A stretch of DNA of 64,000 nt from a bacterium (GTDB taxonomy: Bacteria > UBP6 > UBA1177), in the NCBI GenBank assembly GCA_017645765.1, contig JAGCNV010000057.1:1-64000 (forward strand), written 5' to 3'. Positions 3,550 to 21,773 of this stretch are shown piece after piece. The notes under the pieces were generated by a model. It saw only the letters and a list, made by a program, of their open reading frames with translations, searched no databases and was not told the origin of the DNA. The translations under genes were made by a program, and so were the position numbers. Position 1 is the first letter of the stretch. The number at the start of each line of letters is the position of its first letter.

Positions 3550-4833
3550 ATGAAATTCAAAGTTTTTATCATAATTGCAGTTTTTGCGGCGATACAGGTT
3601 TCCTGCGGTTCCGGTAAAACAGTGAAACCTCAGGAAACAACAGCAGACCTTGACGAAAAGACAATAAAAATAACCTGTGAAAAACATAAAGTCGAATGCG
3701 GCGATTTTATAGCGACAGTAAACGGCTCTATGAAAGCGCTTTTCTGCGGAGAATGCGAAAAAGGTTTTACCTGCGACGATGCGACAAACAAATGCAAAAA
3801 TGAATCCGATACTGACGAACCGGCAGACGATTCGGATGGACCTGCGGATGACTCGGATGATTCCGATGACGATTCTGACAACCAGCCGCAGGAAGCAGAA
3901 ACAAGAGAAACTGCCTGCACCGGACTTCCCGAAAACGCCGAGTGGAACACCGTTTCCGAAATAGTCCAGACTAAGGAAAACGGTGAATGGATCCCTTCAG
4001 AAAAGGCTGCTTTCAATGCCGAATCAAGCACAAACGCATGCCGGTTCATCTGCAAGGAAAATTATGTCTGGAATTCCGAGGAATGTGTCGCACACACTCC
4101 GAGCGGTCTGCCTAAATGCCGTGCAAATGTCACAAAACCGTGCGAGGACCCTGCAACCGGAATAATCTGGTCGGAAATTATTTTAACACAAATGGACTGG
4201 GGCAACGCGAAGGCTTACTGTGACGATTTCGATGAAGGCGGTTACACCGACTGGCGTCTTCCGAATATCGACGAAATGAGGACCGTTGTCAGAAACTGCT
4301 CGCGGATGATGACCGGCGGAGAATGCCCTGTCAGCGAATTGAACGGCGCAACAACCTTCGCAGGAAACTACGATTCCGACGAAACCCGCTTGTTTTGCAC
4401 CTGCGCCTACGACGCAGCAGACAGCATTATCGGAGACAGGAACAAAGTGCTCTGGACTTCGACCACTGTTTCAGATGTGACGATGTACGCATGGACATTG
4501 GATTCGAACTTATCGCTCTCCCCCGAAGCAAAGGAATCAAAGGCTTTCATGCACTGCATCAGATCGGATTACTTCCTGCATGACAGCCACTGTGACAAGC
4601 ACTATACATGGGACGGTTCGGAATGCACGCCCGACACCAAAACGACCGAATGCAAGGGACTTCCCGAAAACGCCGAGTGGAACGCTGTTTCCAGCATAAC
4701 CCAGACATGGGACGGAACAAATTGGGTCCCTTCGGCATGGGCAGCTTACAATAAGAACTCCAGTTCATCGGAATGCCGTTTCAAATGTTACGAAGAATTC
4801 ACATGGAACGGAAATGAATGCGTGCTGGATTAG
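3550..4833 (+). CDS. DUF1566 lipoprotein, paralogue of the preceding gene
   Basis: 427 residues, start preceded by AGGAGG. The lipobox is QVSC. The Cys-rich N-terminal module (CEKHKVECG to CDDATNKCK) closely matches the gene upstream and is followed by an Asp/Ser-rich linker. A TW-type module (LPENAEWNTVSEIVQT to YVWNSEECV), one DUF1566 domain (DWRLPNIDEMR to CIRSDY) and a second TW module (LPENAEWNAVSSITQT to FTWNGNECV) follow. The DUF1566 segment differs from its paralogues at all codon positions, unlike the pair in the 14,574 gene, so it shows no sign of retroelement diversification. Function is unknown; surface display is inferred from the signal and the linker. Confidence 0.9.
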   Translation: MKFKVFIIIAVFAAIQVSCGSGKTVKPQETTADLDEKTIKITCEKHKVECGDFIATVNGSMKALFCGECEKGFTCDDATNKCKNESDTDEPADDSDGPADDSDDSDDDSDNQPQEAETRETACTGLPENAEWNTVSEIVQTKENGEWIPSEKAAFNAESSTNACRFICKENYVWNSEECVAHTPSGLPKCRANVTKPCEDPATGIIWSEIILTQMDWGNAKAYCDDFDEGGYTDWRLPNIDEMRTVVRNCSRMMTGGECPVSELNGATTFAGNYDSDETRLFCTCAYDAADSIIGDRNKVLWTSTTVSDVTMYAWTLDSNLSLSPEAKESKAFMHCIRSDYFLHDSHCDKHYTWDGSECTPDTKTTECKGLPENAEWNAVSSITQTWDGTNWVPSAWAAYNKNSSSSECRFKCYEEFTWNGNECVLD

Positions 4834-4886
4834 GGTTTTTAGTAGGGAACTTAGGGTGTTTAGGGTGTTTAGGGACCTAGATTCCC
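4831..4886 (+). repeat. Short TTAGGG-like repeat after the lipoprotein gene
   Basis: Directly after the stop codon, units of the form TTAGGGTGT repeat, ending in a short AGATTCCC tail. A similar block in opposite orientation lies at 14,501-14,535; both contain AGTAGGGAAYTTAGGG with one difference. Function unknown. Confidence 0.5.
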
Positions 4887-4942
4887 TGCTTTGAATTCAG
4901 ATTTTGCTGAAACTGCAATGTTTTAAGAAGCAGTGATTGATT

Positions 4943-6523
4943 TTACGACTCTTCCTTTCCTCTTAAGAATCTGCCGAAAAGAATCATTCCGAGCGGAGAA
5001 ATGACTGCGACTGCACCGACCCAGATCCAGATCATGTAGTGGTGCGAGATGTCGCCGACCTGCAAGGTCTTTTCACCGGCTTCGTTGACGATTTCGGTTG
5101 CCGGCGTGTAGGCTGAAAGAAGCGCGCCCGACATCCATGCGACGAGGGGCTGCGAAATGAATTTGGGAAGAAGCGAAAGGCTGAGGTAGCTTGCTTCCTG
5201 CCCTTTCGGCGCGATTTTAGCAGTGTATTCCATAAGTCGCGGCGACCAGATAGCCTCACCTATCGTGAAAAGAACGACGAAGAAGCAGAGACCGAGACAA
5301 ATTGCTATCGTTGAAAGCGAGGAACCGTCCGGAAGAGCGAGCCATTTCTGCCAGATGAGCCTACCGAGCATCGAATCTGCGATCGGAGCGTAGAATTCAT
5401 CAGGCAAAACGACGAAAAATACCGATGCGGCCGAGATCAGAGAGCCTATCGTTATCATTTTGTATGCGCTCCACTTTCTCGTGAGCCATGCGATCGTCGG
5501 GACAAAGAAAATGACGATTACAGGGTTCAGAACACCGTAGATGTTGCCTATTTTCGCCCCTTCGCCGAGTACGCGGATCCCGTATTTCGGGAATGTGTAG
5601 TGGAAATGGTAGAAAACGTAGTTTACACCGAGAAGTATCGCCAAAAGCGCCATGAACTTCCAGAAAGCCTTCTGTTTCGCGACATTCACAAAGATTTTGC
5701 CTGCATCCGCAAACGAATTTTTTATCGAATCAAGGATCGAAACGAGCATGTTTCCTTCTTTTTTCGCCCTTTCGTTCTCGATGTGCTTTACGAGCTCGCC
5801 TTCGTCGTTGAGGTCGATGTTGTCACGGATTATCGCGACAAAGAAAAGTGTCGGGATGCTGATGAGAAACGCGACAAGAAGAATGAAGCGGTAAGTCGAA
5901 ATCTCGCCCAGAAGCGGGATAGCGATGTTTCCGTATTCGCCGTAGACTTCACGGATCCCGTCAAAAATAAGTCCGCCCATAGCAAATCCGACGTTCATCA
6001 AAGTGTAGAACATCGCGAATCCGAGAGCCGAAGTGTCAGATTTCGTGTATCTTTTGAGTGCGACCGAAATGACCGGGCTCATAAATGCTACTGAAACCGC
6101 CTGCGGAACAAAGCCGAGAAGCGTAACGACCCAGAAATTTGTTGTGAGGAAAAGGAAAAATCTCGAAAATATTGCCAGGATCGTGCCGATAAGAAGCACT
6201 TTTTTGATTCCGACCGCGTCGACAAGCGAACCTACACCGAAAATAAGGAGCGTATATGCTAAATTCCACGTTCCCATGTAGTTTCCCGCCGCGACATCAC
6301 TGAGTCCCAGATCGCTCGACAGGAACAGAGTGAGCGTCATCAGCATTACCGAATAAGCGGTGTATTCGATGATCTGCGAAATCGAGACGAACCAGATCTC
6401 ACGCGGAGAAGTCTTGAGGCCGCGCTTGTAGTTGTAGACGATGTAAATAAAGTAAACGCAAGCCGCAGCTGCAACGGAATAAAGCAGATAAGTTATCCAC
6501 TGCGGGAATTCAATATAGGACAT
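4943..6523 (-). CDS. Major facilitator superfamily transporter
   Basis: The 526-residue protein has about twelve to thirteen hydrophobic segments, with a central charged loop (residues ~245-280, KHIENERAKKEGN) separating two six-helix halves as usual for MFS carriers. A first extra helix (TYLLYSVAAAACVYFIYIVY) precedes the MFS core, which starts near residue 42 with SPREIWFVSISQ. GGAGG lies seven bases before the ATG. The motif after TM2 (GVGSLVDAVGIKKVLLIG) fits the family's G-x3-D-x2-G/R-(R/K) loop. It is followed by the GAPDH-like gene on the same strand (41-base gap), but no substrate can be assigned. Oligopeptide/POT-type and sugar carriers are both possible. Confidence 0.87.
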   Translation of the reverse strand: MSYIEFPQWITYLLYSVAAAACVYFIYIVYNYKRGLKTSPREIWFVSISQIIEYTAYSVMLMTLTLFLSSDLGLSDVAAGNYMGTWNLAYTLLIFGVGSLVDAVGIKKVLLIGTILAIFSRFFLFLTTNFWVVTLLGFVPQAVSVAFMSPVISVALKRYTKSDTSALGFAMFYTLMNVGFAMGGLIFDGIREVYGEYGNIAIPLLGEISTYRFILLVAFLISIPTLFFVAIIRDNIDLNDEGELVKHIENERAKKEGNMLVSILDSIKNSFADAGKIFVNVAKQKAFWKFMALLAILLGVNYVFYHFHYTFPKYGIRVLGEGAKIGNIYGVLNPVIVIFFVPTIAWLTRKWSAYKMITIGSLISAASVFFVVLPDEFYAPIADSMLGRLIWQKWLALPDGSSLSTIAICLGLCFFVVLFTIGEAIWSPRLMEYTAKIAPKGQEASYLSLSLLPKFISQPLVAWMSGALLSAYTPATEIVNEAGEKTLQVGDISHHYMIWIWVGAVAVISPLGMILFGRFLRGKEES

Positions 6524-14573: not shown

Positions 14574-16994
14574 ATGAAAAAATTCTGTTCCGTTTTCGCA
14601 CTTTTCTGCCTACTGTTTTTCGCAGTTTCCTGCGATTCAGGAATCAAATTTGAGAACCCGAATGACATAAACTCTGATGCCTACAATCCTGAAAGCAGCG
14701 AAAATGAAACCAATGATGAAGACACCGACCAAACCGACACAGAACAAGAAAACGAAAACAGTGACACCGAGCCTGACAACAGCGATTCCGAGCCGGAAGA
14801 CACAGACACGGATGATCCTGAGGACGATACCGATTCAGGTGATACCGCTGATGAAGACTACACCGAAGATATCACCGATACAGGCACGGAAACCGGTGAA
14901 ACGCGAGTTCAGGACTGCTCCGAGCTGCCCGAAAATGCACAGTGGAACACTGTTTCGGCGATAGTCCAGAGCTGGGACGGTGAAAAGTGGGTCCCGTCGT
15001 CAAAAACATCATTCAATCTGGAAGGAAGCGAGGACGAATGCCGCTTTAAATGCAGCACAAACTACGGCTGGGACGGCTCAAAATGCGATGCCGATACAAG
15101 AAATGTCTACTGCGATAACCTGCCGGAACACGCTCAATGGAATGACGGCGGCAGAAACGGCACTTTTGCCCAGACCTGGAACGGCGAAGTGTGGGTCCCG
15201 ACTTCCCACGACGCGGTTTACAGCAAAACTCCTGCTGAATGCGGATTTATCTGCGTTACTGGTTATGTCTGGGACGGCTCACAGTGCGACACCGCACCTA
15301 CTCAGAGCGCAAACTGCACGGGGCTTCCTTCTGGAGCTGAGTGGAACACGGCTTCAAGCATAACCCAGACCTGGGACGGTGAAAAATGGGTTCCCGAATC
15401 AACTGCCGGTGTTTACAACACGACAGCCAGCACAACGGAATGCCGCTTTAAATGCAAAACCAATTACACATGGAGCGGTTCATCCTGCGTTGCGAACACA
15501 AAAGTTTCTCCCTGCATGAACCTGCCCGAAAACGCGCAGTGGAATACAGTAAACAGCATCACGCAGACTTGGAGCGGAGAAGAGTGGCAGCCTTCAACAA
15601 CCGGAACTTACAACACGACATCTTCGACAACTCAGTGCAGGTTCAAATGCAACACGAACTACACTTGGAACGGTTCAATCTGCGCGGCAGACACAAAAGT
15701 CGGCAAATGCCCTTCAAAACCGGCAAATACAGTCTGGAACGACGGCGGAGCAAACGGCACATTCACCCAGACTTGGAACGGAGAAGACTGGATCCCTGCA
15801 AGCTATGACTCGGAATACAGCCTGACAGCAGGCATCTGCCGCTATAAATGCGATACCGGCTACGCATGGAATAACGGCGTATGCGAAACAGCTTCGACAA
15901 GAACCGCCGCTTGCCAGTCAAAGCCTGCGAACACTGAATGGAACACGGTTTCAGAAATCACGCAGACATACACCGGTTCAGGCTGGCAGCCTTCAACCAC
16001 ACCAGTTTACAACGAAACTCCGAGCGAAAGCGAATGCAGATACAAATGCGCATCGGGATACAACTGGAACGGAAATTCCTGCACAAATCAATCGCCTTCA
16101 GGCACGCTCACTCTCGGCAACATCTGCACAGGGCAGACATCGTGCTACAACGCATCATCCTCAATGACCTGCCCGACCTCGTCGAGTGCCGATTTCTTCG
16201 GGCAGGATGCACAGTATGCAGCTCAGGGAATATGCACACCACAGAGTTTCACAGTTCAGACGATTTCATCACAAAAAGTCGTCCTTGACAACAATACTGG
16301 TTTGATGTGGCAGCAGACGATCGCGCCTTCGACTTACATTTGGGACAAAGCCGTTTTATACTGCAACAATCTGCCTTACGCAAGTTACACAGACTGGAGA
16401 GTGCCGACACCGAACGAACTTCTGACTATCGTTGAGAACAGCAAGTATGATCAGGCAATCGACACGACCTATTTTCCTAACACCCCGGGCAGCTATTTTT
16501 GGTCTTCCTCTACCTACGCCTCCAATACTAGCTACGCGTGGGGCGTGCTCTTCGGCTACGGCTATGTGTACGGCAGCTATAAGACAGGCGACAGCTATGT
16601 GCGTTGTGTGAGAGGGGCAGCCTTGCCGACAGGATCTTTTACATCCACGACAGTTCAAGGTAATGTCATTGTGACAGACACAGAAACCGGACTCATCTGG
16701 CAGAAAACTTATGTGTCGGGCAAAACCTGGCAACAGGCTCTTTCCTACTGCGAAAGTCTGACTTATGCAGGATATTCCGACTGGCGGCTTCCAGACAAAA
16801 ACGAACTCGCTTCGCTTATAAATTATGAAAAATATAACCCTGCATCAGATTTTCCTGATATGCCTTCACAATATTTTTGGTCTTCCTCTACCTACGCCGG
16901 CTATACTTACTACGCGTGGTACGTGAACTTCAACGACGGGAATGTGGACAGCAGCAATAAGACAGACAGCCGCTATGTGCGTTGTGTGAGGTAA
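14574..16994 (+). CDS. Large modular lipoprotein with two DUF1566 domains and DGR-like variable ends
   Basis: 806 residues, GGAGG before the ATG. Lipobox AVSC with Cys20. An acidic Asp/Glu/Thr linker covers residues 40-110. Six tandem ~65-residue Cys-rich modules follow (residues 115-~500), each with a C-x2-LP/KP-x-W-N start, a QTW-x-G centre and a Y-x-W-x-G-x2-C end. A Cys/Ser-rich bridge leads to two DUF1566 domains (cores DWRVPTPNELL and DWRLPDKNELA) that end in YFWSSSTYA...YVRCVR. The last ~40 residues of each domain (641-680 and 767-806) are encoded by 119-bp segments that differ almost only at first and second bases of NNC/NNT codons, as in DGR variable repeats. I infer a diversified surface ligand-binding lipoprotein. 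It shares its first 20 mature residues (CDSGIKFxNPNDINSDAYNP) with the 19,154 gene. Confidence 0.93.
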   Translation: MKKFCSVFALFCLLFFAVSCDSGIKFENPNDINSDAYNPESSENETNDEDTDQTDTEQENENSDTEPDNSDSEPEDTDTDDPEDDTDSGDTADEDYTEDITDTGTETGETRVQDCSELPENAQWNTVSAIVQSWDGEKWVPSSKTSFNLEGSEDECRFKCSTNYGWDGSKCDADTRNVYCDNLPEHAQWNDGGRNGTFAQTWNGEVWVPTSHDAVYSKTPAECGFICVTGYVWDGSQCDTAPTQSANCTGLPSGAEWNTASSITQTWDGEKWVPESTAGVYNTTASTTECRFKCKTNYTWSGSSCVANTKVSPCMNLPENAQWNTVNSITQTWSGEEWQPSTTGTYNTTSSTTQCRFKCNTNYTWNGSICAADTKVGKCPSKPANTVWNDGGANGTFTQTWNGEDWIPASYDSEYSLTAGICRYKCDTGYAWNNGVCETASTRTAACQSKPANTEWNTVSEITQTYTGSGWQPSTTPVYNETPSESECRYKCASGYNWNGNSCTNQSPSGTLTLGNICTGQTSCYNASSSMTCPTSSSADFFGQDAQYAAQGICTPQSFTVQTISSQKVVLDNNTGLMWQQTIAPSTYIWDKAVLYCNNLPYASYTDWRVPTPNELLTIVENSKYDQAIDTTYFPNTPGSYFWSSSTYASNTSYAWGVLFGYGYVYGSYKTGDSYVRCVRGAALPTGSFTSTTVQGNVIVTDTETGLIWQKTYVSGKTWQQALSYCESLTYAGYSDWRLPDKNELASLINYEKYNPASDFPDMPSQYFWSSSTYAGYTYYAWYVNFNDGNVDSSNKTDSRYVRCVR
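14916..16086 (+). repeat. Six tandem ~195-bp modules (QTW-x-G repeats)
   Basis: The modules encode successive Cys-rich units of about 65 residues. The same unit occurs singly in the lipoproteins starting at 1,337, 3,550 and 19,154. Four to six Cys and invariant Trp residues per unit suggest small disulfide-bonded domains acting as a stalk. Confidence 0.8.
16494..16612 (+). repeat. Candidate DGR variable repeat A
   Basis: 119 bp starting TATTTTTGG and ending GTGCGTTGTGTGAG. It aligns without gaps to 16,872-16,990: 98 of 119 bases are identical. Of 21 differences, 20 lie at codon positions 1 or 2 of codons ending in C or T (for example TCC/GGC, AGC/TAC, CTC/AAC), as expected from mutated AAC/AAT template codons. 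Only one difference is at a third position. Confidence 0.75.
16872..16990 (+). repeat. Candidate DGR variable repeat B, at the gene's 3' end
   Basis: 119 bp ending two codons from the stop. It shares the invariant 5' block (TGGTCTTCCTCTACCTACGC) and 3' block (TATGTGCGTTGTGTGAG) with copy A, while the sequence outside the block is clearly diverged. The position at the C-terminus, with hairpins starting 40 bases after the stop, is typical for DGR targets. Confidence 0.75.
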
Positions 16995-17034
16995 GTATCC
17001 GTGACCGCATTTTACGAGCGCAGCGAGTTATTTT

Positions 17035-17124
17035 CGCCCGCCCTTTTGAAGGGGGCGGGCGCTTGGCTCCCACTTCGGGGGAGCTGCCGCAAAGCGGCTG
17101 AGAGGGCATCCCGCCGCAGGCGGG
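17035..17124 (+). repeat. Composite palindromic element: four consecutive hairpins
   Basis: Perfect stems follow one another: CGCCCGCCC/GGGCGGGCG (17,035-17,061), GCTCCC/GGGAGC (17,066-17,084), GCCGC/GCGGC (17,086-17,098) and CCCGCC/GGCGGG (17,110-17,124), followed by AAAATTTTTAATTTTTT. Parts recur at 14,262-14,340, 20,362-20,460 and 21,664-21,730. It could end transcription of the lipoprotein gene, but the family distribution points to a REP/MITE-type repeat. Confidence 0.7.
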
Positions 17125-19112: not shown

Positions 19113-19153
19113 ACGTGACCTGACACGTCCAAACGTATTTTGTGGAGGCAAAA

Positions 19154-20239
19154 ATGAAATTCAACTCTTTGATTTTATTGCTCGTTTCGTTGTTCGTTCT
19201 GTTTTCCTGCGATTCCGGGATCAAATTCAACAATCCGAACGACATAAATTCAGACGCATACAATCCAAGCGACACAGAAGCAGACACCGACGATGACAGC
19301 GACAAAACTGACACGATATCAGAATACGACGAAGATAAAACTGACACGGTGTCAGGAAATGATGAAGAAGAAACCGACACTTCCGTGCCAGACGATGACA
19401 CCGATACAACTCCGGCTGATCCCTGTGATCCAAATCCGTGCAACAGTATCGAAAATTCGACTGGCGACTGCACTGTCAACGGCACAGGCTATATCTGCGG
19501 CTGCAATACGCACTACACATGGGTAGACTCACTCTGTAAGGCGGAAGAGCGGGCTAAACCATGCACCGGAAAACCGGAGAACGCAAGCTGGAATACAGCT
19601 TCACAGATAAAACAAACATGGAACGGTGAAGACTGGTATCCATCTACTGCAGGTGTTTACAACACAAATGCAAGTACAACGGAATGCAGGTTCAAATGCG
19701 ATACAGGCTACAACTGGAATGGCTCAGCCTGCGTTTCAGGCGGCTCGTCACTTCCTGAATGCAGCGCGTCGTCAGGCACACCGTGCAAGGATTCGTCAAG
19801 CGGCCTCATCTGGTCGGCAAAGGCATCAAGCAGGATGACTTGGAGCAACGCAGTTTCGTATTGTGACAATCTGACAGAAGGCGGCTATTCAGACTGGCAT
19901 TTACCGAATATTGACGAGCTCAAAACGCTTTTGATAGCAAACAGAGTAACAAGCAACTGTGCAGTAAGCGAAGCAAACAACTGCTTGTCTTACAGCAGCT
20001 GCTGGAGCTGCTCGACCTGCACGCAGACAGGCACTCAGTCATCAAGCGGAACAAGGTGTTCTGATTGGGGAACTTCATACAGCGACGGCAGATACAGCAA
20101 ATTCGGAGAAACCGGCGGATTCTGGTCTTCCTCTACTCAATCAGATAATACAGGTTACGCATGGCGCGTGGATTTCGGCTACGGAAGCGTGTACAGCCTC
20201 GATAAGACTGACAGCCGCGATGTCCGTTGTGTGAGGTAG
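19154..20239 (+). CDS. DUF1566 lipoprotein with EGF-like segment and variable-repeat-like C-terminus
   Basis: The start is the ATG at 19,154 with GGAGG just upstream; a GTG 12 bases earlier overlaps that site and is unlikely. The 361-residue protein has lipobox LFSC and the same mature N-terminus as the 14,574 gene. Then come an Asp/Thr-rich linker with two near-identical KTDTxSxxD units, an EGF-like segment (DPCDPNPCNS to CGCNTHYTW), one QTWNG module and one DUF1566 domain (DWHLPNIDELK). The final 116 bp aligns codon for codon, without gaps, to the candidate DGR repeats A and B. Probably surface exposed; ligand unknown. Confidence 0.92.
   Translation: MKFNSLILLLVSLFVLFSCDSGIKFNNPNDINSDAYNPSDTEADTDDDSDKTDTISEYDEDKTDTVSGNDEEETDTSVPDDDTDTTPADPCDPNPCNSIENSTGDCTVNGTGYICGCNTHYTWVDSLCKAEERAKPCTGKPENASWNTASQIKQTWNGEDWYPSTAGVYNTNASTTECRFKCDTGYNWNGSACVSGGSSLPECSASSGTPCKDSSSGLIWSAKASSRMTWSNAVSYCDNLTEGGYSDWHLPNIDELKTLLIANRVTSNCAVSEANNCLSYSSCWSCSTCTQTGTQSSSGTRCSDWGTSYSDGRYSKFGETGGFWSSSTQSDNTGYAWRVDFGYGSVYSLDKTDSRDVRCVR
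20120..20235 (+). repeat. Candidate variable repeat C, diverged relative of A and B
   Basis: It starts TTCTGGTCTTCCTCTACT and ends GTCCGTTGTGTGAG, the same length as the corresponding part of A/B and again ending at the stop codon. Variable codons are mostly NNC/NNT, but unlike A versus B there are also third-base differences, so it would need a different template or an older origin. Confidence 0.5.
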
Positions 20240-20528
20240 CCCGTTACGCAAAACAAAATCCCCTCAATCTCTCTGCGGGTTCGCAAACCGGATCCGCGGA
20301 GGAATTTTGTCCGTTGTGTAAGGAATTAGGAATAATAAAATTTTCAATAATTTCTCCCCCCCATTTCCGTTTTGAGATGGCGAAACGGCAATGCACTTCT
20401 CCTGTCGCCGCTTCGACAAGCTCAGCGACCGCCAGCTTCCCCAAAATGGGAACCAAGAATTGCAGGCGAGCCGCCCGCACTCCGACAAGTTCACAAATTC
20501 CTCAGAATTTTTCAATCAAAGATTTGTT
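20240..20528. other. Intergenic region with tail duplication and palindromic repeat
   Basis: No gene was recognised. At 20,309-20,323 the tail of repeat C recurs (GTCCGTTGTGTAAGG, one mismatch, 87 bases downstream and in the same frame). An imperfect stem joins ACAAAATCCCCTC (from 20,250) with GAGGAATTTTGT. The repeat at 20,362-20,460 follows. Confidence 0.55.
20362..20425 (+). repeat. Direct repeat, left of the Bro-N gene
   Basis: From CATTTCCGTTTTGAGATGGC to CTTCGACAAGCTCAG. A similar copy in the same orientation lies at 21,664-21,728; the ends match closely and the middle differs. The adjoining bases to 20,460, read on the minus strand, resemble the palindromic element at 17,062-17,107. 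Confidence 0.7.
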
Positions 20529-21663: not shown

Positions 21664-21728
21664 CATTTCCGTTTTGAGACGGCGAAATGGCAACACTGCC
21701 CTCTCAGTCGCCGCTTCGACAAGCTCAG
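21664..21728 (+). repeat. Direct repeat, right of the Bro-N gene
   Basis: Same-orientation partner of 20,362-20,425: CATTTCCGTTTTGAGACGGC to TCGCCGCTTCGACAAGCTCAG. It lies just before the 3' end of mfd. Confidence 0.7.
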
Positions 21729-21773
21729 GAACCTCAAAAAATAAGAATCAGCAATTTGACGCTTTTACCGGCA

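Follow-up and report, generated by a model that had tools for sequence, protein, structure and literature searches.

In Treponema denticola, one study (PMC4891356) describes diversity-generating retroelements (DGRs) whose lipoprotein targets are remote, target genes in strains that have neither the reverse transcriptase (RT) nor the template repeat (TR), and a leftover variable repeat (VR), SP32, that fits the template of another strain. In Thiohalocapsa PB-PSB1, target genes with several VRs diversify unequally (PMC10907252). One study names DUF1566 as the most common target domain (PMC6642488). For the DGR of Bordetella phage BPP-1, the stem-loop behind the VR is important, yet not strictly required (PMC12875486). 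The literature already contains remote targets, several VRs per open reading frame (ORF) and leftover VRs. A large metagenome survey states that remote targets are undetectable by it (PMC8144416); at the locus described here, two VR copies were enough to recognise DGR targets, without a nearby RT.

The window, i.e., the whole stretch of 64,000 nucleotides that was analysed, is contig C67 of a 2.65-Mb genome (109 contigs, 99% complete) from an uncultured ruminant-gut bacterium. The RT search turned up uncultured bacterial relatives from goat, yak and reindeer samples and from other metagenomes, and a DGR RT sequence is present in 11 of the 19 family genomes, in some of them as fragments only. 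Tandem Lcl_C (DUF1566) domains are common in the genome, which has 141 Lcl_C matches. A ruminant-gut lineage with very numerous Lcl_C domains is added to the picture of DGRs. The sole match of an Rfam scan was a tRNA in L034.

On the forward strand, an ORF at 14574..16994 encodes an 806-aa predicted lipoprotein with a lipobox-like AVSC, read from the sequence, at its N-terminus and two Lcl_C domains (Pfam PF07603, E = 2e-67, two stretches). The first domain (16278..16613) has the internal variable repeat VRa (16494..16612) at its end, and the second domain (16668..16991) has the C-terminal variable repeat VRb (16872..16990) at its end, all on the forward strand. The model of the VRb domain has a pLDDT of 96.6; its best PDB match is 8q4e, the C-terminal domain of Legionella Lcl, and the matches after it are mostly C-type lectins. 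In this model the VR forms the terminal part of a C-type-lectin fold, the kind of target that the earlier note had proposed. Orthologs of the 806-aa lipoprotein (L213, L214, and L215) are found in G016 (89% at the DNA level) and in G009 and G017 (70%). All three ortholog alignments end at window position 16072, and the C-terminal target module differs beyond it, as if the target modules had been swapped at a fixed point.

The earlier note had aligned VRa and VRb as two 119-bp segments without gaps, counted 21 differences, nearly all at first or second codon bases, and read them as the mark of a DGR. The same alignment and the same 21 differences were obtained here, and they fall at codon positions one, two and three in a ratio of 13/7/1. 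Fifteen codons differ in total, 14 of which change the amino acid; one copy retains A at 15 of the 21 sites, and the end blocks of both segments are identical. It is also evident that the DNA outside diverges, since the 216 bp upstream, which make up the remainder of the first Lcl_C domain, share only 58% identity with their counterpart in the second domain, and the downstream sequence diverges too. The window contains neither an RT nor a remnant of one as far as the search showed, in agreement with the note, and its only TR-like stretches are three VRs.

The chance test used templates that had played no part in the original observation. All 21 differences between VRa and VRb are located at A sites of the TR of G017 (45 A in 114; P = 9e-11), a real template repeat beside a DGR RT in another genome of the genus. 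For TR1 and TR2, the two templates of the same genome described below, 19 of the 21 differences (P = 2e-7) and 18 of the 21 (P = 3e-7) are at A sites, respectively. The lone third-base change (GGC/GGG) coincides with an A in three of the four templates that were compared, and in a 113-bp core VRa and VRb show zero non-A differences. Similarly, VRb and a VR of G016 differ at 27 sites, all of which are on A of the G017 TR.

Two RTs were found in the genome, on contigs C34 and C35, each within a full cassette of the order VR-avd-TR-RT. The C35 cassette comprises a target VR from 3992, an avd-like gene (4273-4659), TR1 (4828-4944) and the RT (4948-6336); the C34 cassette, in L033 coordinates, comprises a VR at 4169, avd (4492-4878), TR2 at 5049 and the RT (5169-6497). 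The best PDB relative of the RT is 8ub7, the BPP-1 DGR RT (E = 2e-43), and the comparison with PHROG gives a reverse transcriptase (E = 2e-101). An SQ motif marks DGR RTs, and GLPIGNLTSQ and RYVDD are invariant across nine RTs. The avd-like product matches the PHROG family “Avd protein of DGR” (E = 2.7e-12), and its four-helix model matches 4dwl and the Avd of 8ub7 (TM about 0.75/0.85). Its NCBIfam Avd match is below the family cut-off, and the Avd profile found no meaningful match among PDB sequences; the fold search did match. TR1 differs from the C35 cis VR by 20 A-site changes and one other, and TR2 differs from the C34 cis VR by 15 A-site changes and one other. Both cassettes therefore have what defines a DGR in the RT, the Avd and the A-rich TR with an A-restricted VR, and, as judged by sequence resemblance only, in IMH/IMH* with a hairpin. 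A close viral origin of the RT was rejected, as the relatives in IMG/VR are only about 32-39% identical. According to the earlier note, a genome with no A-rich template and no DGR-type RT would have spoken against its reading; the cassettes on C34 and C35 provide both, but the template for the VRa/VRb block itself was not found in this assembly or in the 18 family genomes.

In G009 (L217:1320-1745), a second target comes after the RT and encodes a secreted Lcl_C protein of 141 aa whose end is a VR, and on C35 (L034:6346-6502) the same post-RT gene is truncated, the remnant being 95% identical to window 16638-16725. A short intergenic repeat of the window (17062-17108, 20404-20450, and 21699-21733) is also found in frame inside the C35 RT gene (L034:5970-6100), where RT1 and RT2 differ in length. 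Pieces of the RT C-terminus (about residues 390-462) persist as short ORFs in several genomes (L213, L214, L223, L224, and L225), some of them directly behind VR genes, which suggests that they derive from decayed cassettes.

A further VR in the window, VRc (20123..20236, forward strand), had been missed in the earlier note. It is held by a 365-aa predicted lipoprotein with one Lcl_C domain (19142..20239, forward strand; ORF and Pfam). Between VRc and TR1, 21 of 47 A sites and 1 of 70 other sites differ (P = 3e-9), and VRc is a predicted remote DGR target that is explained by TR1. Because VRc fits the template allele of G009 with zero non-A mismatches, it may record an older TR1 allele. A hairpin is present behind VRc, while the ACCGCATTTT element is absent. 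About 70-80 bp behind VRc (window ~20305-20325) and directly after the C34 RT (L033:6498-6519), there are isolated short copies of the VR 3′ end (CCGTTGTGTAAGG / CCGTTGTGTGAGG), which are possibly scars of former VRs.

With DGR cassettes in the same genome and all 21 VRa/VRb differences on the A sites of an independent TR, the interpretation of the earlier note is supported, and VRa, VRb and VRc are almost certainly variable repeats of DGRs acting on remote targets. A comparison of related genomes, which the note had proposed for VRa and VRb, revealed the same restriction to A sites in the cis VRs instead. TR1 is identical in G013 (114/114), and the cis VRs of this pair differ at 27 sites, 26 of which are template A, with the RT genes of the same pair differing at 51 of 350 third codon positions. 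A template can thus stay identical in two species while the VRs differ, and this difference under an identical TR indicates only that the cassettes have been active since the split of the two species. Nearly identical VRs, perfect at the non-A sites of a known TR, were also noticed in two species (at L165 in G008:C1 and at L166 in G010:C1); the RT search gave no match in G008.

Which template wrote VRa and VRb was then considered. TR1 and TR2 were both rejected for having too many non-A mismatches, as VRa and VRb show 11 and 9 of them to TR1, respectively, and 16-18 to TR2. VRa and VRb therefore need a third template (TR3), either unassembled or lost. One template, with the sequence WSSSTNANNTNNAWNVNFNNGNVNNNNKTNNNYVRCVR, accounts for all of VRa, VRb and the G016 VR with zero non-A mismatches, a fit that is partly circular because A was placed wherever these three VRs disagree. 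TR3 was not found in the genome itself, in the 18 family genomes or in viral contigs by a DNA search, a degenerate pattern and the predicted 3′ end GTGAGGTAAGTATCCGTGAACGCA, although its absence from an assembly of 109 contigs is not final.

Within the DGR interpretation, VRa and VRb could be relics that are no longer rewritten, the TR3-bearing DGR having been lost from the lineage. The lack of TR3 in this genome and its 18 family genomes is in line with such a loss, as are the C-terminal RT remnants that G016 and G009 have downstream of their orthologous gene, and T. denticola SP32 offers a published precedent (PMC4891356). On the other hand, a core with zero non-A differences between flanks of 58% identity means that the rewriting is recent relative to the split of the two domains, and repeated DGR cassettes assemble poorly, so that the missing TR3 carries little weight. 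We regard the loss of the TR3-bearing DGR as a serious possibility that falls somewhat short of an even chance.

The two VRs of the 806-aa lipoprotein differ in their target-site anatomy. VRb runs into an IMH-like tail (GAGGTAAGTATCCGTGACCGCATTTT, 16988..17013, forward strand), in which VRs have ACCGCA where TRs have AACGCA, and is followed by a GC-rich inverted repeat (17035..17061, forward strand) with a 9-bp stem and a 9-nt loop, a candidate target-site hairpin by DNA folding; both the tail and the hairpin are absent behind the internal VRa. A GC-rich inverted repeat of the VRb type is also found behind the C35 cis VR and behind VRs of related genomes. After the stop codon, the VRs have a spacer that leads to ACCGCATTTT or GCCGCATTTT, which is usually followed by a GC-rich inverted repeat. 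The TRs have the spacer in common with their cognate VRs, in a pair-specific manner, but carry the AACGCA form. Among the examined Lcl_C loci of the genome, the motif of the VRs stands behind four of them, namely VRb, the two cis VRs and a VR on C49; its two remaining occurrences are at unrelated places. This contrast between the tails of VRs and TRs looks like that of IMH versus IMH* with a hairpin, as defined for BPP-1 (PMC3240598).

It is also conceivable that only VRb is rewritten by a DGR and that gene conversion from one tandem domain to the other carries VRb sequence into VRa, which would again be a special case of DGR action. VRa has neither an IMH-like tail nor a hairpin of its own, and in a G014 ORF with an internal and a terminal VR, the two VRs share 11 mutated states versus 4.0 expected (P = 0.00025), which suggests exchange between them. 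VRa and VRb themselves, however, share 6 mutated states versus 4.0 expected (P = 0.17), showing no excess over chance; moreover, the limits of the identical tract coincide with the ends of TR-VR homology, and in BPP-1 the stem-loop is no strict requirement (PMC12875486). Gene conversion is thus a tentative explanation that is probably not the correct one, despite the exchange suggested in G014. A broader version, in which the internal VR of tandem two-VR proteins, having no IMH tail or hairpin, is diversified by the inward passage of either DGR cDNA or newly rewritten terminal VR sequence, appears unlikely at present; if it were true, a single target site would keep two binding domains diverse. 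VRa provides a natural case for testing how a VR that is internal and has no recognition elements can be reached.

Ordinary tandem domain duplication with diversifying selection and no retroelement has virtually no chance of being correct: tandem Lcl_C domains are indeed common among the 141 matches, and the ends of the segment code for the conserved motifs WSSS and VRCVR, yet the differences within the segment are confined to template A sites next to upstream domain DNA of 58% identity, the third-position share of differences averages 41% over all equal-length Lcl_C end pairs of the genome (a set that includes TR-VR pairs) versus 2/22 here, and closely related TRs are present in the DGR cassettes of the genome.

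Rewriting by DGRs from remote cassettes thus remains the preferred explanation. The cassettes, and the A-restricted differences both between TRs and VRs and among VRs, are direct observations, and established DGR biology supplies the steps that would connect them. The complex of Avd and RT would copy an A-rich template RNA by reverse transcription, making errors opposite adenines, and the resulting cDNA would replace the homologous end of a lipoprotein gene. TR3, in an unassembled cassette or since lost, would write both VRa and VRb. VRb would be the efficient target owing to its IMH-like tail and hairpin, and VRa might be reached via homing of low efficiency or via exchange with VRb. The outcome would be surface-exposed C-type-lectin-fold domains in which each VR has many diversified residues.

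Among the known systems, the DGRs of T. denticola resemble those described here in their remote lipoprotein targets. They belong to a different lineage, two VRs in one protein are not described in the available part of that study, and the accessory gene there, compared with HRDC proteins, is located between TR and RT, whereas an Avd-type gene precedes the TR here (PMC4891356). Thiohalocapsa PB-PSB1 likewise has several cassettes per genome, trans targets, degenerate loci and multi-VR target genes. Its targets are conflict-system proteins, many of them cytoplasmic, whereas those in the present genome are predicted lipoproteins, and its DGR activity was shown with metagenomes (PMC10907252). Tandem VR-bearing domains in one reading frame are also known from the multi-VR ORFs of Marichromatium (PMC3521204) and of a further study (PMC6642488); those ORFs lie within DGR loci, whereas the two-VR gene of the window has no nearby RT and its template is missing. 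Unlike the DGR of Bordetella phage BPP-1, the present system is chromosomal and has remote targets; its hairpin follows the VR core at a greater distance (about 44 bp) and has a loop of 9 nt instead of a GRNA tetraloop. It nevertheless resembles the BPP-1 DGR in the order avd-TR-RT, the A-restricted changes, the contrast of IMH versus IMH*, the hairpin behind the VR, and the related RT and Avd (PMC3240598, PMC12875486).
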